Assembly (NCBI RefSeq): GCF_020379485.1
Contig: NC_063452.1
Span: forward strand, 24,744,770-24,808,769
Length of the DNA stretch: 64,000 nucleotides
DNA from: Brassica napus
Taxonomy: Eukaryota > Streptophyta > Magnoliopsida > Brassicales > Brassicaceae
Direction of reading: 5' to 3'
The translations under genes were made by a program, and so were the position numbers. Each line of letters starts with the position of its first letter. Positions within the stretch are counted from its first letter, which is position 1. The notes below the pieces were generated by a model. That model worked only from the letters and a program-made list of their open reading frames with translations, was not told where the DNA came from and did no database searches. Of this stretch, positions 18,599 through 62,823 are shown one piece after another.

Positions 18599-18611
18599 AT
18601 TCGCATTGATC

Positions 18612-40937: not shown

Positions 40938-40952
40938 CACTACAAGAAAACA

Positions 40953-41325
40953 CGCCGAATTCCGACGGAGATTCCGACGGACCTCAATGTCGTCGGACGT
41001 TTGTGACGGATTACTGACCAATTTCCGACGAAAACCAAAAATTTTAAGTCGTCGGAATTCCGTCGGCAATTTCCGATGGAATTCCGACGAAACATGGGTC
41101 GTCGGAATATACCGACGAACTTCCGATGATATTCCGATTAACAGTACAGACGTCGGTATTCCGTCAGAATTTTCCGACGAATTTCCGACGAACCATGTGA
41201 CCGTTGCCGACAAATATATATGACCGTTGTATAGCCGTTTGAGATTAGAAAATACCGACGGAATTCCGACGGACTTCTTTACATCCGTCGGAATTTTGTC
41301 GGAAAGTCGTCGGAGGGCCGTAAGC
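40953..41325. repeat. Left subterminal repeats of CACTA 1
   Basis: Many direct and inverted copies of CCGACGGA/TCCGTCGG and CGTCGGAAT. In characterised CACTA elements such arrays bind the TNPA protein. Confidence 0.88.
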
Positions 41326-41416
41326 AATTTCCTATAAATACAGCCTCTCCTCATTCAACTCATTCACACTTCATTCTCTCTTCATTCTCTTTAGTCATAA
41401 CAATTCCGTGAAAATT

Positions 41417-44400
41417 ATGTCTTCAGAAGTTTATTATCATTCGTGGATGGATAAACCTCATTTGGATCCGAACACCAATTTGCTTACGGAAGAATACGTT
41501 CAAGGGATTGAAGAATTCATGAGGCTTGTTCAACAGCAACCGGATGCAAAAAGTGGTATGTTAAGATGTCCCTGCTCTACTTACAATAATAATAAGGTTA
41601 TAAAAGAATTTGATGTTTGGACTCATTTGTATATGAAAGGGTTTTCACGTAATTATAAAGTTTGGTACCTTCATGGGAAAACTGGTTATGAATATGGTAG
41701 TACTAGCGAACCTCAGCCTGTTAGTGAACTTCAGCCTGATATTAGGTTAGAAGAATCTAGAACGGATATAGATTATGGTGTAGGTACTGAGCAGATGGTA
41801 CATGATCATTATAGAGGGGAAGAACCAAATCCCGAATCTAGGAGATTTTTTGACATGTTGGATGCTGGAAAACAACCTTTGTATCAAAATTGTAGAGATG
41901 GTCATTCAGTCTTATCATCTGCAACTGGATTAATGGGTATTAAGACAGACTATAATTTGGCTGAAGAATGTATAGATGCGATTACTGATTTTGTCAAAGG
42001 TATTCTACCTGAGGATAACCTTGCACCGGGTTCATACTACGAGGTTCAGAAACTTGTTGCCGGTCTTCAACTACCGTACGAAGTGATAGATGTATGTATT
42101 GAAAACTGCATGATCTACTGGAGAGCGGATGAGACACGGAATGTATGCAAATTTTGTGAGAAACCTCGTTATCAGGAGACGAGGGGAAGAGTTCAGATCC
42201 CATTCAAAAGAATGTGGTATTTGCCTTTGACGGAAAGATTGAAGAGGTTGTATCAGTGTGAGCGCACAACAAAAGCAATGAGATGGCATGCAGAGCATTC
42301 CACAAATGGTGAGATTAGACATCCTTCAGATGCGAAGGCTTGGAAACATTTCCAGTCAACATATCCAGAATTTGCGGAAGAGAGAAGAAATGTTTATCTT
42401 GGATTATCTACTGATGGTTTCAGCCCATTTGGAAAGCATGGAAGACTGTATTCTCTATGGCCAGTTATTGTGACACCGTACAACTTACGGCCGAGCTTGT
42501 GCATGCGACGAGAGTTTTTGTTTCTCTCAATTCTCGTCCCCGGGCCAGATCATCCTAAAAGATCACTAGATGTGTTTCTTCAACCACTGATATATGAGTT
42601 GCAACAACTATGGGCGCATGGTTTTGAGACATACGATGTTTCGTGCAAAGAAAACTTTCAGATGCGGGCAGTACTTATGTGGACAATAAGTGACTTTCCA
42701 GCATATGGTATGTTATCTGGATGGACAACACATGGGAGGCTATCATGTCCATATTGTCAAGATGACACAAATGCTTTCCAACTAAAGAACGGAAGGAAAA
42801 CGTGTTGGTTTGACTGTCACAGACGATTTCTACCACCTGATCATCCATACCGCAGGAGTAAGACTTCGTTTACGACGAACAAGCAGGTGTTTGATGGTCC
42901 ACCTGAGGAAGTTAGTGGGAAAGATTTGTTGAAGCAGTTTAGGTATTTTGATGCAGAAAGGACGCCAGATGTAGGTGGACATGAAAACATTCGAGTCAGT
43001 GCAGTTGGAGAGCTACATAACTGGCACAAAAAGAGTATTTTCTGGGATCTGCCATATTGGGAGAGTCATCTATTGCGGCATAATTTAGATGTCATGCATA
43101 TTGAGAAGAACTTCTTCGACAATCTGATGAACACAGTCCTTAACATCCAAGGTAAAACGAAGGATAATTTGAAGTCAAGGTTAGATTTAGTCGATATATG
43201 TGATCGTTCTGAAGTTCACGTTGATGAGAACGGTACGGCCCCTTTTCCCATTTATCGGCTGGATGGTGCTAGAAAATAAGAGTTCTTTGATTGGATTACA
43301 GATAAAGTGAAATTTCCTGACGGATATGCATCAAATTTGGGGAACTACGTTTATAGAAGCGAAGGAAAGTTTACTGGCTTGAAGAGTCATGATTGTCATG
43401 TAATTATGCAGCACCTCCTTCCGTTTGCTTTTTCATCATTATTGCCACGTAATGTTCATGAAGCAATTGCAGGTATCTTATATTTTTATAATTTAATTTC
43501 TTTTTATATTTAACAATTATGCTTATAAAAACTTAATACTTACGAAAATTATGTCTTTTTATCTATGTAGGGATTAGTGTTTTCTTCCGCGACTTATGCA
43601 GCAGAGTAGTGACTGAAGAGGGTATTAATAATTTGAAGACAAACGCACCAGTCAGCATGTGCAACCTTGAGAAGATATTTCCTCCATCATTCTTTGATGT
43701 AATGGAACATCTTGCTATTCATCTCGCAAGAGAATTGGAACTTGGTGGTCCTGTGCAGTACATATGGATGTATATTTTTGAGCGTTATATGCATCATCTG
43801 AAGGAGATGGTCAAAAATCAAAGCAGGGTGGAATGATCTATAGTGGCACAGATGATCAATGAAGAAACTGCAATCTTTGCTGAAAATTATTTTCCACCAG
43901 AAGTGCATACAAAACACCGAAGACCTGCTCGACATGATGATAGAGGGGAGAGAGCAACATATCATGTTACTGTCCCAAGCATGTTCAAGGAAATAGGACG
44001 ACTTAGTGGAAAATTCACGAAGCGGAGACTTACGGACACTGAGCACGCTCATTTGCAAACATATTTGCTCACCAACTGTGAAGATGTTCTATAATATGAG
44101 AGGTAAAAATATTTATTCATTTATTGTTAGATTAATATTCAATAAATTTATTTCATATTGATAATATTTTTGTATATAGTGTATATATGGCGGAGTTGCG
44201 TATGACTCACAGGCATGCAACAGAAGATGAGCTTCGACAACTTAGAGATAACGGACTTGCTGCGTGGCTTCGTAGTTATGTGAGTCATATATCATATTAC
44301 CCTATGCAAATGATTAGTTTAAATTTAATATAAACTAATTAACTTTTCAATCATATATGTTTTTAATTTATAGGTGAATGATGGTTTGGCCAGAGGTCTT

Positions 44401-45116
44401 GTGTTCGATGATTGGACACGCGAATTTGTGCAGGAACCAAACTATGTTGTCAAATCATATCCTAAGTTTTGTACGCGAGGATATGCATTCACAAGGAAAT
44501 GTCATTCTAAGACAACATATGATGCTGGTGTTTCATCTTCTTCCGGTGACGATGTCTACTACGGCAACACAAAAGAAATATTGGAAATCCAATTTCCTGG
44601 AATGGTTGGATTGCGTTGTGTAGTATTCTATTGTGATTGGTATGACACCACCCCAGATAGAGGAGTGAAGATTGATGCGTTTGGTGTTACATCAGTTCAT
44701 TCGCGGCGGAAACTTCAATATTATGATCCCTTCATTCTTGGTTCGCAAGCTGATCAGGTATGTCAATCTATTCATAATTTTTTACCAATATAATTAATTA
44801 ATGTTATATATTTTACTAATACTTGTATAATTGATATGTATAGGTGTGCTACATAAGTTACCCTCGGGTGACGTACAGAGACGATCCATGGATCACTGTA
44901 ACGCAAATCAACCCAAGAGGATGAGTGGATGGAACTTCTGATGATGATGATGAACCATTGCAACCAGAGTCTACCAGCAACGCCCAGGCAGTTGAAGATT
45001 TGGAAAATGTTCAACTTGTTGAGAATTTGACTGTGTTTGGACATGATGCTGTTGTACATTCGGAGCCAGAAGCCGAGGTTGGGGAGTTTGATGAAGATTC
45101 AGAAGATTCTGATTAG
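41417..45116 (+). pseudogene. TNPD-like CACTA transposase of element 1, four in-frame stops
   Basis: Begins MSSEVYYHSWMDKPHLDPNT with the transposase-associated cysteine cluster (RCPCSTY). The Transposase_tnp2 core follows (WPVIVTPYNLRPSLC, LMWTISDFPAYGMLSGW, RLSCPYCQDDTNAFQ), then the DUF4218 region and DUF4216 (DAFGVTSVHSRRKLQYYDP). Exons run 41417-43472, 43571-44099 and then three more, about 44180-44279, 44374-44757 and 44844-45116. Stops interrupt the frame at 43277 (TAA), 43834 (TGA), 44092 (TAA) and 44922 (TGA). The intron 43473-43570 has no counterpart in element 2, where the same codons are contiguous. The last exon ends at 45116. Confidence 0.9.
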
Positions 45117-45119
45117 TTT

Positions 45120-45895
45120 TTTTTTTTTTTTTTATTGGTCCGTCGGAAATTCCTCCCAATATACCGACGACATAGCGACGACCAAGGGTTTCGTTGAAGT
45201 TTGTAAAGGTCGTCGGTAATTCGTCGGTATATACCGACGACATTCCGACGAACTAGACAGGTTCGTCGGAATGTTGCCGGTATATTCCGACGAATTACCG
45301 ACGACATGTGTTTCTAAAAAATTTCAATCATAAAAATCTATAAATTTAGATGCCAAAACTATGAAAATAGCACATAATAAGTGTTTAATATAGTATTAGA
45401 TCGCAACCGTTCAAATATAACAACTCATTAAAATATTTATGTATGCATATCATTGTTTTCATAACATCTCATCTTAACACTCATATACTTATACAATCAT
45501 ATTCATATAATCTTACATTACAAAAAATGTTGTTTTGTAAAATCGTGTTATAAAAACATTTTTATTGTTAAATCTTTATGCAAATACTATATATCTTATC
45601 AAAGATATGGATTTTTCATTTAGAAACTTGTAATCAACACCCTAAACACTAAGTCGTCGGAATTCCGTCGGAATTCCGTCGGAATATACTGACGAACACA
45701 TTCCGTCGGAATATACTGACGGACACATTCCGTCGGAATATACTGACGGACACATTCCGTCGGAAATCCAATTTGCCCGGGAGAACCAAACCGCGTGAAA
45801 ATTTTCGCGAATCGCCATTTGGTATATTTTAATTATACCGACAGAATACTGACGAACCCGTATCCGTCGGAATCTTCAGATATAATAACCCTTCT
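45120..45895. repeat. Internal repeat blocks and spacer between the CACTA 1 genes
   Basis: Blocks of CCGACGAA and CGTCGGAAT motifs, identical in type to the subterminal arrays, lie at 45138-45305 and 45653-45875, immediately after the TNPD stop and just before the TNPA leader. Between them is AT-rich DNA. Confidence 0.85.
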
Positions 45896-46023
45896 TCTTC
45901 CTTCTTCGTTATTTCCGCCTCTCTCTCAAGACGAACTCTCTCCGGCGATTTCTCCATCTCTCCGGCGATTCCGGCCGTTCTCCACCTCTCTTCACCGGCG
46001 AATCCTCTTCTCACCCTCATATC

Positions 46024-48249
46024 TCTTCCCCAAACCCCAAATCATGTAAGAATCATCCCAAACCTTCTTTTATATCAATTGTTTAGGGTTTTGGAAGCTA
46101 GATCTCGGATTTTAGGTTGTTTGATTGAAAATTTTAGGATTGAATGAATAGTTTAGGATATATAAGTTAGGATTGTTGTTTGGATTGTTGTTTTAGTTTT
46201 TTTTGGAATTTTTTTTTTTGTTAAAATTCAAAACGTTTTAATATTTTTAAAACGTTTTTTGATTTTTAAAAACATTTTTCAAGTTTCCATTAATGAAATA
46301 TATATAATAAACGTTTTTAAATTTTTTGAAAAATATTTAACAGCATTTTTCTATATTTATAAATTTTTTATTATTTTGTATACATATATATATATATAAA
46401 TCATGCATAATAAAATTTTAAAATTTTTTATAATTTTTATAAGTTTCCACTAATAAACTATGTATAATAAAACGTTTTTTAAAAAAAATTATAAATATTT
46501 AACAATATTTTTCTACATTTATAAATATTTTATAATTGTGTATATATATATATAAATCTTGTATAATAAAGAATTTTAAATTTTTTATTATTTTTTATAA
46601 GTTTCTAGTAATAAACTATGTATAATAAAAGGTTTAATAGTTTTTTTAAAAAAGTTTATAAAACCTTTTGTAAATATATAAATGAAAACATTAAAAATAG
46701 AAATGATTTGAAAATATTTTTGATGTATTAATTTTTTTTATAGGGCCGAGGATGAACCCCGCTTCCGTAGCCCGTCTTCGACGTAGTTCTGTGAGCAGTT
46801 CATGTGCATCGGGATCGTTTCATGAACAAAACTCGGTTCCCGCATATATTCCCGCTCCAGCTCCCGCTGCCCCTCGCGCTGCTGCTCAACAGGATCCGGG
46901 GGTCATGCCAGTTCAACTATTGGTTCAACAACCAGGTCGAGAGCATCTCCCGGTTCTCCAACCCAACCCACGACGAGGACATAGCACTTGGTTAGTATTT
47001 TTTTTATTTGTACCATTATGTTTTTTTTCCTTTAATTAACTTGCTAACTTGTATTTTTTTTAAAGGTTCACCAAGTCGAAAAATGGCATTAGCCGGAACA
47101 TCAACCAGATGATGTACTCCATGCTCCGTTTTGGATATCCAAAGTGGAGTGTGATCCCTTTCGACGAATGAGAGTTGTGGTTTCGTCAGTTTGCGGTATA
47201 GTAACTCTTCATTTTTTTAAAGTTTTTACATTTTTTAAATATATTTACTTATTAAATTATGTTTGTTTTGTAGCAAGAGTTCAACTGGCACTCCGATCTT
47301 ACGGAAACAGTCCGTAAGAAATTCAACGAAAAGACCATGGACTCTTATACGAAGCAGATAAACGCGTGGAAGACAGTTTGGCAGAAGAAAAAGAGGCCAC
47401 GGTTCATCAACGGGATGGTGTGGGAGCAGTTGATAGCTCATTGGGAGAAGGAAGAAACTGCAGAGACGTCTTCTAGGAACTTCAAGAACCGGAAGAGCGA
47501 TCGTGGCGGGAAAGGTATGTATGTGCACAACCTCGGCGCTTGCTCTATGTCTACTAAGGAGGATGAACTTGTAAGTTTTTTTATTATTATTTATCTTTAT
47601 ATTTTTTAAATAAATATTTTATATATTCTTTGGCTAATAATGGCGGTTTTTTTAGATCGAAGCAAATGACGGTAATCCCGTTGATCATCTCCAACTCATT
47701 AAGGTGGCTCACACTAACAAGACGACGGGTCAAATTCAGGACCCCGTGATCAAAGGTGTCGTTGATTTGGTGGAAGCTGAAATAGTATCTCAATCTCAGC
47801 CTCTCTCTGATGACGGCGATTCTACGGGAGCTTCAACCAACTTGTCTCTATTGCAAAAAAAAGAGATGGTTGAAAAGGTAATTTTTTTTATTAATATATT
47901 TTTTTATAATGTCGATTACTAACTTGTCCCTATTTACTAACTTTAAATATTTTTGTAGGCAGTTCCTAAAAAGAAAAGAGGCCGTTTAGTTGGGTTGGCC
48001 CGCCGTGCTTCTTCGTATCCGGCATCTTCTTCGCAAGCTCCGTATGCCGATCCCATGATTCTCGAGGAGCTACATGACAAAGATGAACGGATTGGGGCAT
48101 TGGAGGAGCAGAACACCACTATCCTTTCTGAGAATGCCACTATCCGTTCGGAGAATGCCATTATCCTTGTTGAGTTGGCATCCCAGAAGAAGTTCAACAC
48201 CGAGATAATGCAGAAGCTAGATCGTTTGATGTCTTCGAGATCATCTTAG
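46024..48249 (+). pseudogene. TNPA-like gene of CACTA 1 (PF03004, plant Ptta/En/Spm transposase family)
   Basis: TNPA-type proteins bind the subterminal repeats and assist excision. The leader exon ends CAAATCAT just before a GT at 46025; as in element 2, the ATG would be split AT|G by the intron, but here that start leads to a frameshift before the open frame at 46752. Exons then encode VQLLVQQPGREHLPVL, FTKSKNGISRNINQMMYS, QEFNWHSDLTETVRKKF, then HWEKEETAETSSRNFKNRKS, IEANDGNPVDHLQL and a final coiled-coil segment (LHDKDERIGALEEQ to LDRLMSSRSS). A TGA lies in the third exon (47169-47171, before ELWFRQFA). Introns are GT-AG. Confidence 0.82.
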
Positions 48250-48469
48250 TTTTTTCGGTTTTTTAAAACTTTCTGAATGTTTTTTTTCTATTTCGGTTTG
48301 TATGAATTTTAAACTTTCTGAATGTTTTTTTTTCTATTTTGGTTTGTATGAATTTAAATTCTATAATATTATTAGTTTTAAATTTCTGATTTTTTTAATT
48401 TATTAATTAATTTTAATATAAAAAAATATATAAAAATGCAAAATTAATTCGTTTTTAAAATTGGAATAT

Positions 48470-48943
48470 TCCGACGAACTCTGGGCGTCGGAATATACCG
48501 ACGGACAACGGTTCCTCGGAATATACCGACGAACCAACATCCGTCGGAATTTACCGACGAACCATTATCCGTCGGAATATACCGACGAACAAATATCCGT
48601 CGGTATATTCCGACGAACCAATGTCCGTCGGTATATTCCGACGAACAAACGTCCGTCGGAATATACCGAGGAATCCAGTACGTCGGAATTGTCCGAGGAA
48701 CGCTCTCCGTCGGTACATAGTTTTTCCGATGAACTCTGGTCTCGTGTGTCCGCATCGTAATATCGTCGGAAGTTCGTCAGAATGACGTTTCTCGGTATTC
48801 GTCAGAAAGTCGTCGGAAGTTCTGACGAAGTTTTGACGAATTTTTTTCCGACAAAACGATACCGACAGACAGGTTCGTCAGAAATTTGTCGGAATCGGTC
48901 TATTCCGACGAATTTCTGACGATTTCGGCCATCAGAATCCCCT
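48470..48943. repeat. Right subterminal repeats of CACTA 1
   Basis: About twenty alternating direct and inverted CCGACGAAC and CGTCGGAAT copies, a few with the variant CCGAGGAA near 48665-48700. Confidence 0.88.
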
Positions 48944-48958
48944 TGTTTTCTTGTAGTG

Positions 48959-49003: not shown

Positions 49004-49639
49004 CTGCGATGATTATAATTCAAGATTCAAACACACTTAAAACTATTAAGTGTCTTAACTCAAGAACTTATTAATCTAAGAACACTTTGATTTCGTAATG
49101 AACCATCGAAACTCTTACGATTTCGTTTTTTCGTATGTGAGAACGAAGAGGAGGATGACGAAAACGAGATTAAAGACGAACCATCTGACGAAACACCGAT
49201 GAAGAACAATGATTTTCCAAGAACCCTAAATCGCCATGGATGAAGTCAAGAGCTACGGCAGAGAAAAGAAGATTAAAAAAAAATTAGGGCAACTTTACGG
49301 GTTTTACCTCAACCGTATCTTTTTTTTCCTTTTTTTTTATTTTTAATGCTAAATCAATTACGAAAATAATTGTTATAATTATAATTCATATTAATTGGTT
49401 TATTTTAAGGGTATTATGGTATTTACAAGAATTAAAATCCTATTTTCCTAAATAATCTTCTAAAAATCCCATTGAGACAAATCTAAGTTGAGAATGTCCT
49501 TTTTTCCAATTTTCCCTAAAATAAATACTATATGGAGAATGAAAACCAGATTTTTCTAAAAGCAACATATAAATTTGATTATATTTTCAAAACCAAAAAA
49601 AAAACTACGGTTTTTTTTGATGAAATCTGTCAATATATA
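49004..49639. other. Spacer between the two CACTA elements
   Basis: AT-rich, with poly(T)/(A) runs. No gene recognised. It is flanked by oppositely oriented CACTA transposons. Confidence 0.5.
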
Positions 49640-49669
49640 CACTACAAGAAAACATCAAGGATTCTGAGG

Positions 49670-49915
49670 GAAAAAATCGTCGGAATTTCGTCGGAATATC
49701 GTTATTCCGACGACATACCGACGAAACACGTCGTCGGAAATAATTCCTCGGAATATACCGAGGGAAAAGTTCCTCAGAATAAACAGAGGAACCTGTCCCT
49801 CGGTATAGCCCGAACGTTTTTTAAAAAACGCATCGATCGATGCGTTTTTGAACAAAAACGCATCGATCGATCAAGTGAAAAATATAATTAATTTCCTCGG
49901 AATGTAAAAAATATT
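49670..49915. repeat. Left subterminal repeats of CACTA 2
   Basis: CGTCGGAAT and CCTCGGAAT motifs followed by two CATCGATCGATGCG palindromes (49830-49872), the same palindrome that forms the internal array at 52940-53645. Confidence 0.82.
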
Positions 49916-50054
49916 AATTTTTTTAAAAAAATAAAATTTCTGAAATTTAAATTCGAAAATATGAAATTAAAAGTAAAATTGAAATCATATTAATTAATAT
50001 TCAAAGTTTCACAAATAAAAATAAAACATTCCGAGTTTGTGGAAAAAAAAAAAA

Positions 50055-52250
50055 CTACGGGTCTGGCACGTCCGGGAACACCTCGTTTGGGTACATCCTC
50101 TGCATCATCTCCATCATTTGCTGGTTCAGCCTCCTCTGTGCCTCATAGTCCGCCTGTTGAGCCGCCATCTGGGTCTCTAACAAAGATATACGATCATCTT
50201 TGTCCTTCAACTGGGCCGTAAGTACTTCTGGATCAACAAAGGGCGGTGGTGCAGAAGAAGGTGGAACCGACCGGGTGCGACGACCCAAACCGACCAAACG
50301 TCCCTTCTTCTTTGGAACCGACTGTATAGAAAAAAGCCAAATTTAGAAATTTAAACCAAGAAATAAAAGAATTGAACTTTTAAAAACAAAGAACTTACGG
50401 ATTCAACGATTTCGTTGATTCGAAACCGGGACAAGTTGGTCGAAGCCGTCGAAGCGTCATCCTCGGTTTGAAGCTGAGACACTTCGTCTACCACCTGAGT
50501 TTGGACCAGGTCGACCACGTCCCTCACAAGACCGTCATCAATCTGGCCGGTCTTCTTGTTGGTATACGCCCTCCTCATTAGGGCGAGATCATCAACCGGC
50601 TCGCCATCATTTTTTTCCGCCTTGAAAAAAAACATAAATTAAAGAAACATTAGAAATTAGAAGAAATGCACAATAAATTTAAATTCTGAAACTCAAATAA
50701 TTGAAGAAAAAGCGGTTGAACTTACCATCCGATCTCCGAGAGTGGCAATAGATTGAGCACCCAAGTTATGCTTGTAGATGCCCTTCCCTTTACGGCCGCT
50801 CTTGCGGTTGGTGGAGTTGGTGGAAGAAATTTCTTTCGTCTCTTCCTTATCCCAATGCGCACACAACTCCTTCCAGACCGTGTCGTTTGTCGACTTTGGG
50901 ACCTTTTAATAAAAAAAAAAGAAAAATTTAATAAACTAAAAAATAGTTTAAATAAATTAAAAAATGGTTTAATAAATTAAATCGAACCTTATTGATTTCC
51001 CACTTCTTCTTCCACTCGTGGATCTGCTTCCCATAGTTGTCCATTACTTTATGGACGAAGTGGTGATAGATAAAGAGCGTCTCATCGGAATTCCAGTTGA
51101 ACTCTTGCTGAAAAAAAAACACAATTTGTAGAAAATTTATATTAAAGATTAAAAATATAAGTAAAAAATTAGAATACTTACCGCAAACTAACGAAACCAC
51201 AGAACCTGCTTGTCGGTTGGGAAGTGAGTGAAAGTCGGATGTCCACTGTCGAGGGCCGAGTACATCATACGGTTGATCCATGCGCTGATCCCGTTCCCGG
51301 ATCGGTTGAACCTTATTAAAAGAACAAACGGTTAATAATGAATCCAAATTTAAAGAAAAAAAAATGTTTAATTACCATGTTTGACCCCGTCCATGTGGAT
51401 ACGGAGTGAGATACGGAAGATGGTCACGACCGGGCTGTTGAACCAACTCCGCAACACGCATCACTCCCGGAGGACCCAGAGGAACAGGAGCGGATGCAGC
51501 AGCGGGAGCGAGAGGAGCAGGAGCGGGTGCAGCAGAGGGAGATGTATGGTTGGAGCTGTGGGGCGAAGGGGAATCCTGAAAATGGCTGGAATCCCGAGAC
51601 TGGCTCCCCGTACCACCACGACCACGACGCTGTCGAGGCCGGGTCTGATCATCATGAGACCTGTAAATTTGAAAAATATATTTAATAAATACAGAAATAT
51701 ATAAATTAATTTTTTTTTTTTAAAAAAAAATCCCCAAATAATTTAATCACAAAAGAAGATTTATATATATTAAAATTTTTAATAAATATATAAAAATAGT
51801 TCTAATAAACAAAAAATAGTTGTAATAAATAAAAATAGTTTAATAATTACAAAAAAATAGTTTTAATAATATATATATATTAAAATTATTTTTAAATCCC
51901 AAATAATAGATTTTAATCACAAAAAAAGTTTTATAGATATTTAAAATGTTTTGTAAAATCCAAAAAATCGAATTTATATAGAAAATTTTTTTTTTGTAAA
52001 GTCCAAAAAATCGAATTTATATAGAAAAATCGTTTTGTAAAATACAAAAATCGATTTTATAAATAGAAAAAAAAAATTATAAAAAAATTCTAAATCAATT
52101 CAACAAAACAAATCATTCAACCAAATCACAATTCTAAACCTATTATACAACCAAATCACAATCCTAACCAATCACCCTAAAAAAAATCTATCAAAACCAC
52201 ACAAAAATCTAACAAATAGAACCTAAGAGAGTGGGATAGGGTCCTTACAT
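50055..52250 (-). pseudogene. TNPA-like gene of CACTA 2 (PF03004 family), one in-frame TAG
   Basis: The start codon is split by an intron: AT at 52250-52249, G at 51660. Exon 51660-51376 is Ser/Pro/Ala-rich (TRPRQRRGRGGTGSQSRD) and ends QQPGRDHLPYLTPYPHG. Exon 51311-51182 contains GNGISAWINRMMYSALDSG and a TAG at 51190-51188 inside LWFR-stop-FA, where element 1 has Gln. Further exons are 51107-50988 (QEFNWNSDETLFIYHHFV), about 50904-50727, about 50621-50399 and about 50321-50055, the last coding a coiled coil (LKDKDDRISLLETQM) and ending FPDVPDP. Apart from the TAG the gene looks sound; read-through or a strain difference would rescue it. Confidence 0.82.
51663..52248 (-). other. Start-codon intron of the CACTA 2 TNPA-like gene
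   Basis: AT-rich intron of about 590 bp between AT and G of the inferred initiation codon. The corresponding intron in element 1 is 46025-46743. Confidence 0.65.
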
Positions 52251-52394
52251 GATTTGTGTAAGAGAAGAGGGAGATCGCCGGAGATATCGTCGGATTTCAG
52301 GGGGAAATCGCCGGAGAGAAGAGAGGATTTGCGCAGAAGAAGAAGAAAGAAATGGGGAAGAAGAAGTGGCTCGTGGAAATATTTGCCCGGTAAA

Positions 52395-52500
52395 ATGAAA
52401 ATATTCCGAGGAAATTCCGACGGATAGTAAAATATCCGTCGGAAGTTCCTCGGAATATTCCGAGGAAATACCGAGGAACTAGTGTTTGGGGTTTCAAAAC
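52395..52500. repeat. Internal repeat block upstream of TNPA in CACTA 2
   Basis: TTCCGAGGAAATTCCGACGG-type motifs. The final segment AGTGTTTGGGGTTTCAAAAC recurs at 52909-52928 after similar motifs, a direct repeat around 420 bp apart. Confidence 0.8.
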
Positions 52501-52804
52501 ATCAATTTTTTTTTCCGTATTTCATTTCTTATACAATTGTAATGCATACCATTGAGGATTCTTTGTATAGATGAGCATAAACCATGAAATAAAAAATTTC
52601 AAAACTAATTGAAAGTATTCCCTTTACCGTTCATTAAAAGGTATAAGTGTTTGTCTTATGTTGCGAGATTTCGTTCATACAATCGGAAAAGTGTTAATTA
52701 TACGGTAAAGAACAAATTTTTGACTTCATAATGAACGTATGACACTTAATAAGGGTTATATAGGTGTTATTCAAACGGCAAAACGTTGTTTTCAGTTTAA
52801 AAAC

Positions 52805-53110
52805 CCTATTTCCTCGGAATTTCCTCGGATTATTCCGAGGGAACTCCGAGGAAACCCTCTTCTTCCTCGGAATTTCCTCGGAATATTCTGAAGAAATTCC
52901 GAGGAACTAGTGTTTGGGGTTTCAAAACGTAATTTTTTTTAAATAAACGCATCGATCGATGCGTTTTTGAACAAAAACAAATCGATCGATTACAAAGATG
53001 GACCGGGCCGTAAGATTGTGATCGATCGATGAGAGAATCCCATCGATCGATCGAGAATCTCAATTGTTCCTCGGAATGTCCTCGGAAAATCTTGTATGTT
53101 TTTTTAAAAA
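52805..53110. repeat. Internal repeat block upstream of the ORF-1-like gene
   Basis: Clusters of CCTCGGAATTTCCTCGGA and its complement precede and interleave with the first ATCGATCGAT units. Confidence 0.8.
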
Positions 53111-53645
53111 CGCATCGATCGATGCGTTATAGAACAAAAACGCATCGATCGATTACAAAGATGGACCGGGCCGTAAGATTGTGATCGATCGATGAGAGTA
53201 TCCCATCGATCGATGCGTTATAGAACAAAAACGCATCGATCGATTACAAAGATGGACCGGGCCGTAAGATTGTGATCGATCGATGAGAGTATCCCATCGA
53301 TCGATCGAGAATCTCAATTGTTCCTCAAAATGTCCTCGGAAAATCTTGTATGTTTTTTTAAAAACGCATCGATCGATGCGTTATAGAACAAAAACGCATC
53401 GATCGATTACAAAGATGGACCGGGCCGTAAGATTGTGATCGATCGATGAGAGTATCCCATCGATCGATCGAGAATCTTAATTTTTCCTCGGAATGTCCTC
53501 GGAAAATCTTGTATGTTTTTTTAAAAACGCATCGATCCATGCGTTTCTGAACAAAAACAAATCGATCGATTACAAAGATGGACCGGGCCGTAAGATTGTG
53601 ATCGATCGATGCGTTATAGAACAAAAACGCATCGATCGATGCGTG
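52940..53645. repeat. Tandem array of ATCGATCGAT-bearing units
   Basis: Units of roughly 100-165 bp begin AACGCATCGATCGATGCGTT near 52943, 53109, 53205, 53362, 53526 and 53608. They share CGATTACAAAGATGGACCGG, GCCGTAAGATTGTGATCGAT and TATCCCATCGATCGATCGAG. Each unit carries three or four self-complementary ATCGATCGAT cores. The array ends about 55 bp before the leader of the ORF-1-like gene. Confidence 0.88.
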
Positions 53646-53714
53646 TTCGGAAAACAGAATTATAAGGCAAAACCCGACCTTTTCTGGATCTAAACCTTAG
53701 AACTCTCATCCCCT

Positions 53715-54151
53715 CCGATTTCCCCTATAATTCGCCCCCCCTTTCTCTCTCTATAATCATCCGATTTGAACAATTTTGGGCTCCATTCCACTTGATTTTT
53801 CGAGCTCTACCTGATTCCTACACTCGTCTTCACCCTAAGACAGGTATACTCCGCGAATCTCCACATTCTGAAATCGTGTTCTTGAGCATTTTTTGGGTTT
53901 TGTGAATTTCTTATTTCCGTGTTGATTCCTTGATCAAATATGCATGAAACAGATGTTTAAACATGGAATAGAACACAATTGTCTGTGATCAACGAGTTTG
54001 GAACAGGATTTGAGATGATTTAGGGATTGAGAATTTTTTTCAATTTGGTTTTTTTTTTATCACAACTCGATTTCGCTTTTCATTTTCATGTTGCTTTGAG
54101 TTCTTAATTGATTATAACCATGTTGAGAGCAATGATTCTATTTTGTAGAGA
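53715..54151 (+). promoter_or_regulatory. Promoter, leader and 5'UTR intron of the ORF-1-like gene
   Basis: CTCTCTCTATAATC near 53744-53757 resembles a CT-rich leader with a TATA-like box. A donor (CAG|GTATACTC, intron from 53843) and an acceptor (TTTTGTAG at 54142-54149) define a leader intron ending three bases before the ATG at 54152. This gene-like structure argues for an expressed unit. Confidence 0.55.
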
Positions 54152-55600
54152 ATGAAGCGCACGAAAATGTCAGCAAAGAAGAACACACAAGAAGAGGGTT
54201 CGTCTCAGCGAGAGAAGCAAAGGCCAAAGAAGTGGGATAAGTCTGATACCACCCACTACAACAACATGAAGAAGGTAGCCGTTCCGGCTACACAACTAGC
54301 ATGTCCTGAGACGATGACAATATTGGGAATCCAAGCAGACATTGAAGGACTGTTCCAGAACATGGGTCTAGGCCAACTATGCAACCTCAACGAACCCACT
54401 TATCCGGAGTTGGTACGCCAGTTCATAGCATCCGCATACGTCACCCGTCCCGATGATAGCCATCAGGAAGGTTTCCTGGCATTCGTAGTGCAGAAAGTAT
54501 ACTATGAGGTATCTTTCACAGACCTCTGCAGACTATTTGGATTGAGTGCAGGGGAGAGGACATCTGGTCTTTATTGGACTTCAGAGCTGTTGAACTTCTG
54601 GGAAACGATTGGCACAGGGGTTTATAGATCTTCTCAGGCAAAGGAGTCACTTATCCGGAGCCCAGTACTGAGATATGCCACACGCCTCATTGGCTCATTG
54701 CTATACGGGACAACCACAGCCGCATCAGTCACGCAATGGGAGTTGTGCCTCCTGTACCAAGGTGTGAGGCATTTGCTACCGGCATTTGGAAACTCTACAT
54801 TCCCACCTGCTACTGCCTTCAACATGGGAGCGGTGCTGGCCGCAAACTTAGCAGGATACAAGGGGAAAGTAACCAAATACAAGAGCAATGCATGTGGATT
54901 TGGTGCAGTGATTACTCGGATCCTTAGACATGTGGGTGTAGACTGCAAGAACCAGCAGGTAGCACTGGACAGATCGAACAACATTGCTTGGAACTACCTG
55001 GATGTCATTTCTCTAGTAAGTAAGGAGTTCATAGCTGGTCCCCACTCGAGGATCCATCGGGATGGTCCTTACGTCTACGTATTCCAGGACCGAGCGAAGA
55101 AAACACTCTACTGCCACCTACCTCAGATCGGTCTGACTTCTCTACTTTCAGAGGCTGCAGTTGAGTTCCTACCCCCTGCTACCGCACTAGTAGACAAGCC
55201 ATCCTTCTTCACGCCAAAATATCAGACCAAAGGCAAGGGCGTGGTTGATGAAGAAGGAGAAGATGAGGCTGCACAAGCCATTCCAGATGATTCACAACCC
55301 CATCAGCTACTCCCATCAGACTCCAGCCAGTACAAGCTGCAAGAGCTTCCACCGAACGCCACTTCGCGCCAGCAACAACATTGGAGAGATCAGAGCATAA
55401 AGACAAACAACGACATGCTACACAAGATCTGGGCTGCCATTTCACGTATCAGGCCGTGTCGTTGCCAAAAGGATGATGTAGTTCATCGGGACAACTCTCC
55501 ATCCAGCTCTGGTTCGGGTTCGAGTGGTACACACAGGGTAAGAAAGAGGTCCAAGAGACCCAACGATGCAGGAACATCTGGAGCAGGAGACGAGGAGTAG
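54152..55600 (+). CDS. ATHILA ORF-1-like protein carried inside CACTA 2
   Basis: An uninterrupted 482-codon frame without introns. The N terminus is basic (MKRTKMSAKKNTQEEG). Residues about 45-330 follow the pattern of the ATHILA ORF-1 family (PF03078), the gag-position protein of Athila gypsy retrotransposons: LGIQADIEGLFQNMGLGQLC, YPELVRQFIASAYV, VYYEVSFTDLCRLFGLSAGE, FWETIGTGVYRSSQAKESLI, SPVLRYATRLIGSLLYG. The tail is Gln/Ser-rich and ends in a basic stretch (HRVRKRSKRPNDAG). No LTR, primer site or pol lies nearby; CACTA repeats flank it. It is on the strand opposite to the transposase genes, with its stop 274 bp from the TNPD stop. Function inside the transposon is unknown. The alternative is a relic of a nested Athila insertion. 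Confidence 0.78.
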   Translation: MKRTKMSAKKNTQEEGSSQREKQRPKKWDKSDTTHYNNMKKVAVPATQLACPETMTILGIQADIEGLFQNMGLGQLCNLNEPTYPELVRQFIASAYVTRPDDSHQEGFLAFVVQKVYYEVSFTDLCRLFGLSAGERTSGLYWTSELLNFWETIGTGVYRSSQAKESLIRSPVLRYATRLIGSLLYGTTTAASVTQWELCLLYQGVRHLLPAFGNSTFPPATAFNMGAVLAANLAGYKGKVTKYKSNACGFGAVITRILRHVGVDCKNQQVALDRSNNIAWNYLDVISLVSKEFIAGPHSRIHRDGPYVYVFQDRAKKTLYCHLPQIGLTSLLSEAAVEFLPPATALVDKPSFFTPKYQTKGKGVVDEEGEDEAAQAIPDDSQPHQLLPSDSSQYKLQELPPNATSRQQQHWRDQSIKTNNDMLHKIWAAISRIRPCRCQKDDVVHRDNSPSSSGSGSSGTHRVRKRSKRPNDAGTSGAGDEE

Positions 55601-55804
55601 GAGCTATCACCGGCTATTTTATTTTCTTTTCTATTCTAACGTTTTATGGTCTTATTTTCTGTTAATTTTGAACTGAGTTTTTTTTTGGGTTTCTTAATTA
55701 TGAGTTCGTATTTCTTTTACATGGTTTCTTCGTTTTATTTGGTTGTGTTCTGAGTAGTTTTTAATTCGTATTCAGCTTTGCCTTGCTAGATAAACCAAAT
55801 AACT

Positions 55805-55858
55805 ATTATCCGAGGAAAGAGGTTATATCAAGTGTTCCTCGGAATTTCCTCGGTATTT
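55805..55858. repeat. Internal repeat block between the ORF-1-like and TNPD genes
   Basis: Short CCGAGGAAAG and CCTCGGAATTTCCTCGG motifs sit between the two convergent stops, the same motif class as the terminal arrays. Confidence 0.75.
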
Positions 55859-55882
55859 CTTTAAAAAATAAAATAAATAAGT

Positions 55883-58800
55883 TCAATGGTAGTCTGTTTC
55901 CGAGTCATCATCACCAGATGAATCTGAATCTGGATCTTCGTGAAACTCTCCAATCACTGGTTCATCCTCTACGTGAACGACGGCTTCCTCTCCAAAGTCG
56001 GTTAAATCGACTACAAGGCCAACTCCAGCTAAATCTTCTGCTGCACTTAAGTTGCCGGATGTGCTTGGTTGTAGTGGGTCTTCCAGCTCAGAACTTCCCT
56101 GAACTCGGCCTCTCGGGTTGAGTCTTGTAACAGTAACCCATGGATCATCTCTGTTCCTTACCCGGGGGTACTTGATATAACAAACCTGTAACATTTAGAA
56201 AAATTATAAATTAATACACATGATGATGAATCATTCTGAATAATTAACATTTAATTACCTGATCGGCCTGAGAAGCAAGAATGAAAGGATCATAATATTG
56301 CAGCTTTCGCCTCGAATTTACTGATGTAACACCAAATGCATCTGTTCTCACACCTCGATCTGGGGTGTTGTCGTGCCAATCACAATAGAAAACAGTACAG
56401 CGCAATCCAACCATGCCCAAATACTTAATTTCCAAAATCTCATGTATGTGTCCGTAGTATACATCATCTCCTGATGCAGAACAAACGCCAGCATCATAAG
56501 TCGTACTCGAACGTCTCCTCTTCTGAGTTGTGAATGCATATCCTCGAGTACAAAATCTCGGATATGACTTCACAACAAAGTTTGGTCCAACGACCATCTC
56601 ACGTATCCAATCGTCAAATGTTTCACCTCTGGCCAAACCAGCAGACACCTATTAATAGCACATATATATATATTATATCAATAAATGTGAATTAGTATAA
56701 ATATGTGATAAAATATATTTTAATTTGTTTAAAGCACTCACATAAGTAAACATCCATCCACTAAATTCTCTCTGCTTCATTTCTTCTAGTTCGTCCTCTG
56801 TGGCGTATCTATACTCGAACCGCTTTTCTGCCATGAAAATCCTGTATATGATGACAATAATGTAATTAATTAAGATTTAAATTTCAACTTGTTAAAATAA
56901 AAATTTGTAAGCTCATTTATTTACCTCTCATATTGAAGAACGTCTTCGCAGTTGGTGAGCAAATATGTTTGCAAATGACTGCGCTCCTGCTCAGTAAGTC
57001 GACGGTCCTTTGGTTTTCCGCTAAGTCGTCCAACATCTGTGAAAATGTCTGGAACCGTAACATGATATGTTGCCCGTTCGCCTCTATCATCATGCCGAGC
57101 AGGTCTTCTGTTTTTGGTCTGAACTTCTGCTGGAAAGTAGTACTCGGCAAAGTTTGAAGTTTCTTCATTGATCATCTGTGCGACTATAGAACCTTCCACC
57201 CTACTTAAATTTTTCACCATCTTCTTCAAATGGAACATATACCGCTCATACAGATACATCCATCTATACTGCACAGGACCACCAAGTTCCAATTCTCTTG
57301 CCAGGTGAATAACAAGATGCTCCATAACATCAAAAAATGAGGGAGGAAATATCTTCTCAAGGTTGCACTGAATCACGGCTATGTTAGTCTTCAAATTTTC
57401 AATACCTTCAAGAGTCACTGATCTCGTGCATAAATCGCGGAAGAAACCACTTATCCCTGCAATTGCTTCATGAACATTTCGTGGTAATAGTTCCTTGAAG
57501 GCGAACGGAAGGAGGCGCTGCATCATTACATGGCAATCGTGGCTTTTCAAGCCAGTAAACTTTCCTTCCTTTCTGTCGATACAGTTACGCAAATTTGATG
57601 CGTAACCGTCTGGAAATTCCACATCGTTTGAAATCCAATCAAAGAACGCATCTTTTCCCGCTGCATCAAGTCGGTATATGGGAAAAGGAGCCCTACCATT
57701 TTCATCAACATGAAGTTCTGAACGAGCACATATATCGACTAAATCCAGTCTTGACTTCAAATTATCCTTTGTTTTACCTTGAACATTAAGGATCGTGTTC
57801 ATGAGATTGTCAAAAAAGTTCTTCTCAATATGCATGACATCTAAATTATGCCTTAGCAGATGATCCTCCCAGTATGGCAGATCCCAGAAAATACTTTTTT
57901 TGTGCCAGTTATGTAGTTCTCCAACAGCATCTACCGGAAAACGCTCATGTCCACCGACTTCTGGCGTCCTTTCTGCACCAAAATCTCTTAGTTGTATCTT
58001 CAAATCTTTCCCACAAATTTCCGGAGGTGGACTGTCAAACACCCTCTTGTTCTTCGTAAACAAATTCCTACTCCTACGATATGGATGATCAGGTGGTAGG
58101 AATCTCCTGTGACAGTCAAACCAACACGTTTTCCTTCCGTGTTTTAGTTGGAAAGCATCAGTGTTATCTTGACAATATGGACATGATAGCCTTCCATGCG
58201 TTGTCCATCCAGACAACATACCATATGCTGGAAAATCACTTATTGTCCACATTAGTACTGCCCGCATTTGAAAGTTTTCTTTACACGAAACATCGTATGT
58301 TTCAGCACCTTGAGCCCATAGTTGTTGCAACTCATATATTAGTGGCTGAAGAAACACATCAAGTGATCTCTTAGGATGCTCTGGTCCGGGAACGAGAATC
58401 GAGAGAAACAAAAACTCTCGTCGCAAGCACAAGTTTGGGGGGAGGTTGTATGGTGTAAGAATGACGGGCCATAGAGAATACTGTCTTCCACTCTTGCCAA
58501 ACGGACTAAAACCATCAGTACATAATCCAAGGTAGACATTTCTTCTCTCATACGCAAAGTCGGGATACTTTGATTGGAAATGCTTCCACGCTTTTGCATC
58601 TGAAGGATGTCTGATCTCACCATCTGTTGAGTGCTCCGCATGCCATCTCATTGGTTGCGCTGTGCGTTCAGACAGATACAACCTCTGCAACCTTTCCGTC
58701 AAAGGTAAATACCACATCCTTTTATATGGCACTGGAACTCTTCCACTCGTATCTTTATAACGAGGCTTTCCACAAAATTTGCATGTAACCCGCTGTTCAT

Positions 58801-59500
58801 CCGCCCTCCAATAAATCATGCAGTTGTCGCTGCATACATCTATTACCTGATACGATAAACCAAGACCAGCTACGAGTTTCTGAACCTCGTAGTATGAACC
58901 AGGAGCTACATTATCCTCGGGTAGAATACCTTTTACAAAATCAGCAATCGCATCCACACAGTCTTCAGCCAAATTATAATCTGTTTTAATGCCCATCAAT
59001 CTTGTAGCAGATGATAAAGCTGAATGACCATCTCTGCAACCTTCGTACAATGGTTGCTTTCCAGCATCCAACATATCATAAAATCTCCTAGCTTCTGCAT
59101 TGGGTAAATCTTCCCCTCTAAAATGATCATTTACCATCTGCTCAGTACCTACACCATAATCTACATCCGTTCTAATTGGTTCTTCTAATCTAACCGCTGG
59201 CTGAGGTTCGCTAGTACTACCATGTTCATAATCAGTTTCCCCATGATGATACCAAATTTTGTAACTTCGTGTAAACCCACTCAAATATAGATGAGTCCAA
59301 ACATCCCACTCTTTAATAACCTTTCTATTTTTACAATTAGAGCAAGGACATCTTAACATACCTGTTTTTGCTTCCGGTTGTCGGTGAACTAACCCCATGA
59401 ATTCGGTTATACCTCGTTGGTATTCTTCCGTAAGCAATCTCGTGTTCGGATCCAAATGAGGTCGATCGATCCAAGAACGAAAATAATTTGAAGAAGACAT
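55883..59500 (-). CDS. TNPD-like CACTA transposase of element 2, apparently intact
   Basis: Catalyses excision and integration of CACTA elements. Exons are 59500-56925, 56841-56742, 56648-56259 and 56185-55883, all GT-AG with closing phases, giving 1,122 residues. The N-terminal transposase-associated region has RCPCSNCKNRKVIKEWDVW. The Transposase_tnp2 core includes SLWPVILTPYNLPPNLC, LMWTISDFPAYGMLSGW, RLSCPYCQDNTDAFQLKHG and HNLDVMHIEKNFFDNLMNT. The DUF4218 part includes GLKSHDCHVMMQRLLPFAF and FFDVMEHLVIHLARELELGG. DUF4216 includes CDWHDNTPDRG and DAFGVTSVNSRRKLQYYDP. The C terminus is acidic. No stops or frameshifts were found, unlike the copy in element 1. Confidence 0.93.
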
Positions 59501-59604
59501 ATTTTTTATGAATCAAATTCGTGTGTAAATAGAGTAAGAGGGAGGATGAAGATATGGAGTGAATGAAGAGGAAGAGGAGTGCTTGTATATATAGATTAAA
59601 TCAT

Positions 59605-59930
59605 GCCGACATACCGAGGAAATTCCGACGGAATTCCGACGGAAAAGGCTAGTTCGTCGGAATTTCCTCGGAATTTTGTAAAATCCCCCAACGGCTCTCC
59701 AACGGCTATAATATTTCCTCGGAATTCATCGGTTTTTTCCGAGGAACACATTGTTCCTCGGAATTTCCTCGGAATATTCCGACGGACTGAGGTTTCCTCG
59801 GAATTCTGTCGGTATATTCCGAGGAAATTCCGAGGAACCCCAATTTTGTGTTTCCTCGGAATTTCCTCGGAAATTCCTCGGTATATTCCGAGGATTTCAT
59901 TTTCCGTCGGAATGTCCGTCAGAATACCGC
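59605..59930. repeat. Right subterminal repeats of CACTA 2
   Basis: Dense CCGACGGAATTCCGACGGAA and CCTCGGAATTTCCTCGG motifs on both strands up to the inverted repeat. They overlap the probable TNPD promoter. Confidence 0.88.
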
Positions 59931-59948
59931 TGTTTTCTTGTAGTGATA

Positions 59949-60258: not shown

Positions 60259-60346
60259 GATTCCATTTTGGATTAAAGTCCAGGGTCTCCCCGTACATCT
60301 CTGATTCCATTTTGGATTAAAGTCCAGGGTCTCCCCGTACATCTAT
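60259..60346 (+). repeat. 44-bp tandem duplication in LINE ORF1
   Basis: GATTCCATTTTGGATTAAAG and the bases after it occur at 60259 and again at 60303. The 44-bp unit is not a multiple of three and so shifts the DUF4283 frame. Confidence 0.92.
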
Positions 60347-60414
60347 GGACTGAGGAAACAATCAAATGCATAGGAAACGACATTGGCATCTACGAGAAAG
60401 CGGAGATAACATCT

Positions 60415-61854
60415 TTGGCAGCAAGAATGAGGGTCCATATAGACGGGCTGCTTCCGTTAATCACTAACTCGATACTAGAATTCCCCAATGGAGATGAAGT
60501 CAAGACTAACTTGGTCTATGAAAGATTAGACAAGCACTGTACCAAGTGCCTACGACTAGACCATGACCTTAAGGAGTGTTTGGTAGCTCGCGCAGAAGCG
60601 AAAGCACTGAAAGCAGTTCAAGAAGAGGGGAGGGAAGAATCTGATACTAATCTAAACCTATCAGGATTTACTAGAGGTTTCTCTACTGCTCCACAGCATG
60701 CGAACCGTAATCTAAGGGCCCCTGAGCTCATAAACCAGCAAGCATTTCAATTCTCAACATCTCACAAAGGCTCTGGCCGAGAAAAAAAAATAGAAACTGA
60801 TGCTAGGAATCACCTGCAAAACAGAGGATACAAAACTCAAAATCAATCCTGGCAGGAACGAGGCTCACAGAGACGATCGTACCAAGCAAGAGAAAGATCA
60901 AAATTTGATAGTGACAGATACTCTCGACCTTCCAGAGAGCACCATAGTCAAAGATCCCTCCCTGGCCCCCCAAGCAAAAGTTACTACAGAGAAGTACAAA
61001 AGATCGCTCATGATCCAAGAGACACTGGATTTAGTGCCTCGAAGAGCATCCATGCTAATGTGGAACGGGGGAGTCCCCAACATGCCAGTCAGGGCATGAT
61101 TCCACAAAGCGTTTTAAACGAAGCCAGGGGAGAAGCAAGAGACGTTTTGTTACAATACACGAAGTGCGCTGACCCGACCGAAATGGAAGTCAGAGAAGAA
61201 AGAGTAAGACAAGCTGAAGAAAGAGGCCAAATTGAGGCGAATGCACGGAAGATAGCACGAGCTTCCCTTAATAGTTCAGAAGAGCAGTGGATGAGCCCCG
61301 CTAAGAGTTCTTCAGAACGAGTCCCTGCTTCACAACGACTGGGGCCTAATGAACAAGCTAAGGAGCCTAATGTCGGACTTGTTGTTTCAGAAGGGGCTGA
61401 CAATTCCCGCCGTAGAACCCCAATCTCCCAATGGCTTGGTGATGTAGCTACGTCCCCCATCAAAAGCCCAAGGGTCCCAGCAGTACTTCGCTTAGGCACC
61501 GGGCACTCTGGAAGCCCAAGCAAACTACCAGAGGATAAGATTCCCCTAAAGAGGAAGCCGGGAAGACCACCTGGGCGGGTGAGAATACCAGCTAGCCCGA
61601 CTATTGAAAGAGGATCGCCTGCCAAAAGAAGAGTGCTGTCAACCAAACCCACAAAATGTCGCCAAAAATTAAACAGTGAACCTATGAAAGGTGGGACTAA
61701 AGCGAAAAAAGGAAAGCCGATGGGCGAAACCTCAAGGCCGGCGAATTCAGGGGAACATACCCATTCGTCTGACAACATACCTCTACGCAACATGATCCCA
61801 AAGTTGACTAGGAGGAAGGCGGTTTTTCGAGTCCCGTCTGCTCCAGTTCCTTAG
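60415..61854 (+). pseudogene. LINE ORF1 (nucleic-acid-binding, zf-CCHC_4)
   Basis: Open from 60415 to 61854. Just upstream in the same frame are WIKVQGLPVHLW-type residues of the DUF4283 C terminus. The zinc knuckle is CTKCLRLDHDLKEC (CX2CX4HX4C, near 60539-60580). A long basic, Ser/Arg/Pro-rich tail follows (RKPGRPPGRVRIPASP, FRVPSAPVP), including an AT-hook-like GRPPGR. In L1 elements this protein packages the RNA. The N-terminal part is missing, so it is a remnant. Confidence 0.82.
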
Positions 61855-62761
61855 CGATTGCAAGCTGGAACTGTCAGGGGTTGGGGAATCCCCGGACAGT
61901 TCGACGTCTCAAAGAGATATCCAAGAAATTCCGACCAGATATACTCTTTCTAATTGAGACCAAAAATCCCGATGACTTCGTTCTCCAGAAGTGTAAACAA
62001 CTGAACTACGAAGCGCACTATCTTGTCCCTCCGACGGGGCATGGAGCCGGTGGGTTGCTCTGTTCTGGAATCAAAAGGTTAACCTCACGGTATTGTACTC
62101 TAATGCAAATGTAATGGAAGCAAAAATTGAATTTCAAGGAAGAATTTTCTACTCGAGTTTTGTGTATGGTTGTACCGACAGAGAACAACGCAAAGGTCTC
62201 TGGAACCAACTTCTTGTCTCTGCAGAAGATAGGGACGCCCCTTGGTTCCTAACAGGGGACCTGAATGATCTCCTCACAAGTGATGAAAAAGTCGGGGGAC
62301 CGGATCGACCAGAGGGGTCGTTTTTGGATCTTAGAACCTTCTTCTCGGAGGGAGACCTATACGACCTGCACCACTCAGGAGACCCACTGTCTTGGAGAGG
62401 ACAAAGAGGCACACACTTTGTGAGATGTAGGCTGGATAAGGCGGATGCAAATAGTGCATGGGCGGAGGTTTATCCAACAGCGCGGTGCCAATATCTGGAA
62501 TACGAAGGATCGAATCATAAGCCGTTGCTGACCTTCCTTGATCCCTCAACTTTAAAGCGACGAAAACTGTTCCGATATGATCGCCGCCTCAACTCAAATG
62601 AGGAAGCGAAACAGGTCATTAGAGAATCATGGGCACAGGCTCCGCAAGGAAGAGTTATGGATAAACTATCATCTACAAGAAGCGCCATTGTGGAGTGGAA
62701 CAGGCTCCAATACTGCAATAGTAAAACGCTCATTGAACAGAAGAAGCGGAAGAAGCCCTAA
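61855..62761 (+). pseudogene. LINE ORF2, endonuclease domain
   Basis: The APE-type endonuclease starts ASWNCQGLGNPRTVRRLKE and shows FLIETKN, a frameshift near 62060, then GDLNDLLTSDEK and CRLDKADANSAW. The usual catalytic SDH motif reads SNH (62510-62518), an Asp to Asn change. A stop follows at 62761. Confidence 0.85.
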
Positions 62762-62823
62762 CAAGCCCACAGAACGATACGAGCTTAATCAAGGAGATCA
62801 ACGTTAGTCTGAATGCGGCTTAT

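Follow-up and report, generated by a model that had tools for sequence, protein, structure and literature searches.

A third gene within a complete CACTA element

We analysed a window of 64,000 nucleotides of the Brassica napus genome (contig NC_063452.1), the whole stretch to which all coordinates refer, and focused on the ORF found at 54152-55600. The ORF list of the window gives it as an ATG-started open frame of 482 codons on the plus strand. In 50 single-base shuffles of the surrounding element, the longest stop-to-stop frame arising by chance was 192 codons (mean 124). That element, called CACTA 2, has all the hallmarks of the CACTA (En/Spm) type: inverted termini, a 3-bp duplication, TNPD and TNPA genes and subterminal clusters of short motifs (Table 1). 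As originally predicted, the 482-codon frame is free of stops and lies inside the terminal repeats of CACTA 2, on the strand opposite to both TNPD and TNPA; the leader intron that was also proposed is predicted from the sequence. The ORF is located between the two canonical genes, in divergent orientation to TNPA and convergent with TNPD.

Table 1. Positions of the CACTA 2 components and of the neighbouring CACTA 1 in the window
Feature	Position	Strand	Basis or remark
CACTA 1, diverged family, 8,021 bp, TTT target duplication	40938..48958	.	complete ends
CACTA 2 element, complete, 10,306 bp	49640..59945	.	terminal repeats and target duplication
3-bp target duplication ATA	49637-49639 and 59946-59948	.	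flanks CACTA 2
Left terminal inverted repeat CACTACAAGAAAACA	49640..49654	+	CACTA 2
Left subterminal region	49640..50049	.	9 CCTCGG/CGTCGG-type motifs and two ATCGATCGAT sites
TNPA-type gene, approximate limits	50050..52300	-	PF03004 Transposase_24 in 50354-50638
Divergent TNPA/ORF intergenic region	52300..53699	.	18 subterminal-type motifs
Tandem 254/163-bp array	~52950-53650	.	18 of the window's 20 ATCGATCGAT sites
Leader intron, GT-AG (GTATAC...TTTTGTAG)	~53844..54148	+	prediction only; ends 3 bases before ATG
Third gene, 482-aa protein, ATHILA ORF-1 family	54152..55600	+	open frame, PF03078
Subterminal-type motifs (three) where ORF and TNPD converge	55805..55860	.	motif count
TNPD transposase gene	55886..59500	-	PF02992, PF13960, PF13963, PF13952
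TNPD exons	main ~56921-59500; others within 56244-56648 and 55886-56194	-	profile matches
Right subterminal region	59501..59945	.	18 motifs
Right terminal inverted repeat	59931..59945	-	15/15 bases complementary to left

Motifs of the CCTCGG/CGTCGG type are also present on both sides of the ORF. The 1.4-kb gap that separates it from TNPA harbours 18 of them, compared with a mean of 1.7 and a maximum of 5 in 200 shuffles, and the 285-base gap between the ORF and TNPD contains three, a number reached in none of 200 shuffles. None occurs in the ORF unit itself (53700-55600), two are found in the body of TNPA and one in that of TNPD. The ATCGATCGAT palindromes are similarly distributed, as all 20 sites of the window belong to CACTA 2, two at its left end (49832 and 49862) and the other 18 a short distance 5' of the ORF. 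The third gene is thus a separate unit on the opposite strand of the TNPD-TNPA junction, flanked by the element's own subterminal-type motifs.

We also considered a second CACTA element nested around the ORF and rejected it, as nothing resembling a CACTA end was found in the stretches that separate the motif clusters from the ORF. Exact CACTACAASAA sequences are present at the four ends of CACTA 1 and CACTA 2, and once within the ORF at 54254, which we read as chance. The same sequence with one mismatch is found within TNPD, at 56066-56076. Other elements populate the window. Directly to the right of CACTA 2, at 60277-64000, a LINE-type element contains frames for DUF4283 with a zinc knuckle, an endonuclease and a reverse transcriptase, and frames for a Copia-type gag and integrase are found on the minus strand at 17207-19517.

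The encoded protein belongs to the ATHILA ORF-1 family

The profile search suggested along with the original prediction assigned the 482-residue protein to PF03078 (ATHILA ORF-1), with an E value of 5.1e-47 and 161.2 bits over positions 32-424 of the 458-position profile, far above the curated cut-off of 20.2 bits. PF20167, a family linked to PF03078 in the part of PMC11728184 available to us, scored 24.8 bits with this protein, below its own cut-off of 45 bits. From its sequence, the product is computed to have a mass of 53.6 kDa, a pI of 9.0 and clusters of basic residues at both ends. No membrane-spanning stretch was detected in it, the highest Kyte-Doolittle mean over 19 residues being 1.16.

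Searches of solved structures with this protein yielded a single chance-level match (E 0.79), and single-sequence fold prediction gave a mean pLDDT of 38.6 and no usable fold. There were no matches in Rfam or NCBIfam. Viral contigs searched with the ORF and with TNPD, and prokaryotic contigs and plasmids searched with the ORF, contained no relatives.

PF03078 genes of the resident retroelements

All 92 PF03078 matches scored in the genome, out of 2259 candidates, rank above the CACTA 2 ORF, and most of them are longer frames. We compared the CACTA 2 protein with eight proteins of retroelements, L001 to L008, whose stop-to-stop frames of 574-597 codons exceed its 482. These proteins form two groups that are 30-31% identical to each other. 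The CACTA 2 protein is 22-23% identical to all eight over ~460 aligned residues, and it therefore represents an old separate lineage rather than a recent local capture.

The original prediction held that PF03078 genes occupy the gag position of Athila elements, which our analyses do not support. In the two readable Ty3/gypsy-type copies, for which 3 kb further upstream were read, the PF03078 gene is located downstream of pol: reverse transcriptase, RNaseH and integrase precede it in L005, and integrase in L001. In L003, whose PF03078 gene is of the L004-L008 type, pol was not seen in the 3 kb upstream, where the longest frame has 139 codons; by eye, the flank resembles an ABC-transporter gene. 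The published work is in line with a location other than gag, insofar as the accessible sections of the papers go. PF03078 was used to denote ENV in PMC2533021 and is listed among extra ORFs, present in 16% of Athila elements, in PMC6317226. For plant retroelements, the available text of PMC7264820 describes most extra ORFs, the antisense ones, as being of unknown origin and without similarity to other transposons.

The 5' ends of some of these genes resemble that of the CACTA 2 ORF. An acceptor-like site precedes the ATG by three bases in L003 and L005 and by nine bases in L001. The site is also present in L002, where the nearest ATG is out of the frame read. With a simple pattern, donor-like sites were found in L005 and L002, and that of L003 falls in flanking DNA. 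Based on these signals, both the CACTA and the retroelement kinds are predicted to have a leader intron whose 3' end lies shortly ahead of the ATG.

PF03078 genes are characteristic of some Athila-type elements, and the ORF might accordingly be a piece of an Athila element inserted into CACTA 2. Nevertheless, we found no pair of long direct repeats spanning the ORF that could represent LTRs, as only short CACTA-type motifs recur, and these are present on both sides of it. Neither gag nor pol was matched in the stop-free frames scanned inside CACTA 2, including 12 of the 34 short frames (35 codons or more) that flank the ORF. The absence of LTRs and of pol remnants in these searches agrees with the original prediction. 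Given also the low identity to the eight resident retroelement proteins and the identical position of the ORF in all copies examined (see below), we regard a nested Athila fragment as highly improbable.

The gene is a constant feature of CACTA 2 copies

Copies were searched for in the whole assembly (997,428,009 bases in 3,116 contigs). With the ORF protein, 88 copies were scored out of 2255 candidates; all of them cover residues 1-482 at 98-100% identity. This list was ranked by protein similarity and hence favours intact copies, 81 being free of stops and seven having one or two. In all 30 loci of this list retrieved with 1.5-kb flanks, including that of the window, CACTA 2 sequence is present on both sides of the ORF, and the longest flanking piece is 97.7-99.7% identical in the 29 loci other than the window. 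We then looked at the right ends of 20 further copies, 18 of which harbour the terminal repeat at the expected spot (17 exact and one with two mismatches).

Searching with the leader sequence, which belongs to the ORF unit and is thus not independent of the ORF, gave 40 scored copies out of 777 candidates. In 31 of them the leader is followed by an ORF of the 88-copy list, one with a stop. The remaining nine carry the gene at ~99.3-99.6% identity, eight with a one-base deletion and one lacking ~80 bases. An independent sample was obtained with 1.5 kb of TNPD DNA (40 copies scored out of 1560 candidates). The gene is present at the same place in 40/40 of these TNPD-chosen copies. For 25 of them, a gene known from the other lists is found at the expected place (22 open and three broken); for the other 15, reading the expected place revealed it each time, twice without its 5' part. 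In total, the ORF is open in 26 of the 40 copies, one of which has in-frame deletions, and broken in 14. Whether whole or broken, the gene occupies the TNPD-TNPA junction in every copy examined.

The one-base deletions recur: four copies share one site, three another, two a third and two a fourth, and no more than three bases separate the first site from the fourth. Coinciding or closely spaced deletions were noted in L081, L086, L095 to L097, L100, L077, L080 and L088. Because of this recurrence, broken versions of the ORF seem able to spread, unless the same slips happened repeatedly.

These data bear on two proposals of the original prediction. The first was that a DNA transposon captured a gene from a retroelement. 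An ATHILA ORF-1 family gene does belong to the CACTA element, as observed in 40/40 TNPD-chosen copies and 30/30 flanked loci, but the proposed direction from Athila to CACTA does not find support at ~22% identity. The second, that the ORF was kept open while neighbouring transposons decayed, is borne out only in part, in that the TNPD gene of CACTA 1 contains stops. However, the main exon of the CACTA 2 TNPD is also open (859 codons), and more than a third of the TNPD-chosen copies have a broken ORF.

CACTA 1, a related family that lacks the gene

CACTA 1 belongs to a diverged family. Its TNPD differs from that of CACTA 2 with a dS of ~0.61 and a dN/dS of ~0.18. No trace of the ORF was found in the window copy. 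We performed a search for this family with DNA of the TNPD end and the junction, which gave 40 scored places out of 1325 candidates. In all 40, the TNPD-TNPA junction leaves no room for the gene, which is absent there: the junction match is contiguous in 36 places (89-100% identity) and consists of two neighbouring pieces in four. Five places retrieved with 1.5-kb flanks had no ORF match either. The expectation that sibling CACTA elements carry the ORF at the same site thus holds for the CACTA 2 family (40/40) but not for the CACTA 1 family, whose junctions point to either a gain of the gene on the lineage of CACTA 2 or a loss on that of CACTA 1.

CACTA 1 harbours an internal motif cluster (45.0-45.9 kb) between its TNPD and TNPA, as does CACTA 2. 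Since it occurs there without the ORF, such a cluster probably belongs to the basic layout of CACTA elements.

Variation among copies

A non-neutral dN/dS was expected for a gene maintained by the element. In the least biased sample, made up of the 33 TNPD-chosen copies (out of 40) whose ORF sequence was available, we counted 18 synonymous (S) and 53 non-synonymous (N) variants and two stops, a ratio that fits neutrality (P 0.56). No constraint is thus detectable inside the present CACTA 2 family in this sample. An excess of synonymous variants came from sets composed mostly of copies picked by protein similarity, i.e. 54 copies (45 so picked; S 31, N 39, stop 4, compared with neutral fractions of 0.249, 0.702 and 0.050, P 0.001) and 29 copies (20 so picked; S 11, N 12, P 0.014). 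We had taken them as a sign of purifying selection within the family, an interpretation that we withdraw, as the signal comes from the protein-picked copies and the TNPD-chosen ones are neutral. The diversity in 30 copies, 0.0022 for the ORF and 0.0057 and 0.0144 for its flanks, carries the same selection bias. As a control, 570 bases of TNPD yielded only six variants (2 S, 4 N), too few to tell how TNPD behaves. Variants in young copies mostly arise after insertion, so that a neutral ratio is a weak test of function, neither showing nor excluding one.

This neutral ratio is what one would expect if the gene were a passenger, i.e. if one master CACTA copy had gained it and then been amplified, with a useless gene still open only because the copies are young. 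That 14 of 40 copies are broken, some by shared breaks, that copies are 98-100% identical and that CACTA 1 is devoid of the gene all fit such a scenario, to which we give somewhat less than an even chance. Even a useful gene would nevertheless show neutral-looking post-insertion variants in young copies. Furthermore, nearly the whole domain has been kept at ~22% identity to the retroelement versions, which argues for long constraint somewhere, and the ORF unit is embedded in the motif system of the element.

Origin and possible role of the third gene

Our preferred reading, with a probability of about 0.5 for the explanation as a whole, is that the ORF constitutes a standing third gene in a CACTA family of high copy number, which acquired it, or alone retained it, before the burst that generated the present copies. 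It would be a member of an old transposon gene family common to both classes, fixed in CACTA 2 before this recent burst. Counted against it are the neutral ratio, the 14/40 broken copies with recurrent breaks, the gene-less CACTA 1 and the third-position GC content, 0.51 in the ORF compared with 0.36 in the main TNPD exon.

If this standing-gene reading is right, the gene would have passed from one transposon class to the other at the DNA level, in the distant past and in either direction, and it would have been under constraint for most of the time since the transfer, as suggested by the survival of the domain at 22% identity. The ORF would be transcribed divergently from TNPA, and TNPA may bind its promoter region. 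As a guess, the product might be a nuclear helper, acting for example in regulation or in the escape from silencing; were it supplied in trans, copies with a broken gene might spread as well. A bolder proposal is that PF03078 represents a mobile cassette, with its own promoter, a leader intron and a single protein, that plant transposons of Class I and of Class II have passed to each other, and that its product, a trans-acting and likely anti-silencing factor, enabled the burst. We consider this quite unlikely. If true, ATHILA ORF-1 would be a general transposon helper and not an env gene, and the broken copies would live off the intact ones.

A CACTA family holding an ATHILA ORF-1 gene represents a second kind of carrier for this gene family. 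Its residence in CACTA speaks against an envelope role, as there is no retroelement cycle and the protein has no membrane segment. In the literature covered by our search, with most subscription journals outside its scope and sources accessed in part, we did not find an ATHILA ORF-1/PF03078 gene described in a CACTA element.

Comparison with known systems

The CACTA 2 ORF shares with Athila-type Ty3/gypsy elements, where the gene is ENV-like or an extra ORF, the PF03078 family and an intron-like 5' leader. Unlike them, its carrier is a DNA transposon without LTR or pol, and the proteins are only ~22% identical. With En/Spm (TnpA and TnpD), CACTA 2 has in common the terminal repeats, the 3-bp duplication, the TNPD and TNPA genes and the subterminal clusters. 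It differs from it by an opposite-strand third gene and by a motif cluster between genes, the latter being found also in CACTA 1.

Accessory genes common to several kinds of elements have been described elsewhere. According to the accessible part of PMC12730594, one type of accessory gene, coding for TET/JBP dioxygenases, occurs across unrelated groups of fungal transposons, including EnSpm; the product there is a known enzyme, proposed to counteract silencing, whereas the CACTA 2 ORF has no known activity. Similarly, the available text of PMC5408684 reports accessory ORFs, the ORF3 types of bdelloid rotifers, common to different element classes. There, the sharing is among retroelements, whereas here it links one type of retroelement with a DNA transposon.

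Genomic distribution and relation to Bot1

Nearly all ORF copies of the 88-copy list (87) are located on nine large contigs that make up ~521 of 997 Mb, a pattern that looks like one subgenome of an allotetraploid. Alix et al. in 2008 reportedly found the S-locus-linked gene SLL3 inside the CACTA element Bot1. CACTA 2 could then be Bot1 and its third gene SLL3, and our finding would be a re-identification, with the new point that the 'host gene' is a member of a gene family of transposons. The distribution of the ORF is compatible with this: Bot1 of Brassica oleracea is presented as C-genome-specific in the accessible text of PMC3469537, and that of PMC5740159 gives ~956 copies in B. oleracea versus 143 in B. 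rapa for a CACTA of 7,675 bp. Nevertheless, all 40 scored CACTA 1 places are on the same nine large contigs, and the published unit is nearer in length to CACTA 1 (8,021 bp) than to CACTA 2 (10,306 bp), so that the distribution does not identify CACTA 2 as Bot1. SLL3 is mentioned in neither paper, as far as their accessible parts go. CACTA 2 and Bot1 were set side by side by description only, and we find their identity doubtful.

A truncated copy with an open third gene

One copy, L026, has lost ~3 kb of TNPD, so that positions equivalent to 55984 and 58942 of the window are now adjacent; its right end is present and its ORF open. This copy may represent a non-autonomous derivative that carries the accessory gene. 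Together with the natural copies in which the gene is broken, this copy, devoid of most of TNPD, makes the contribution of the third gene to mobility amenable to testing.
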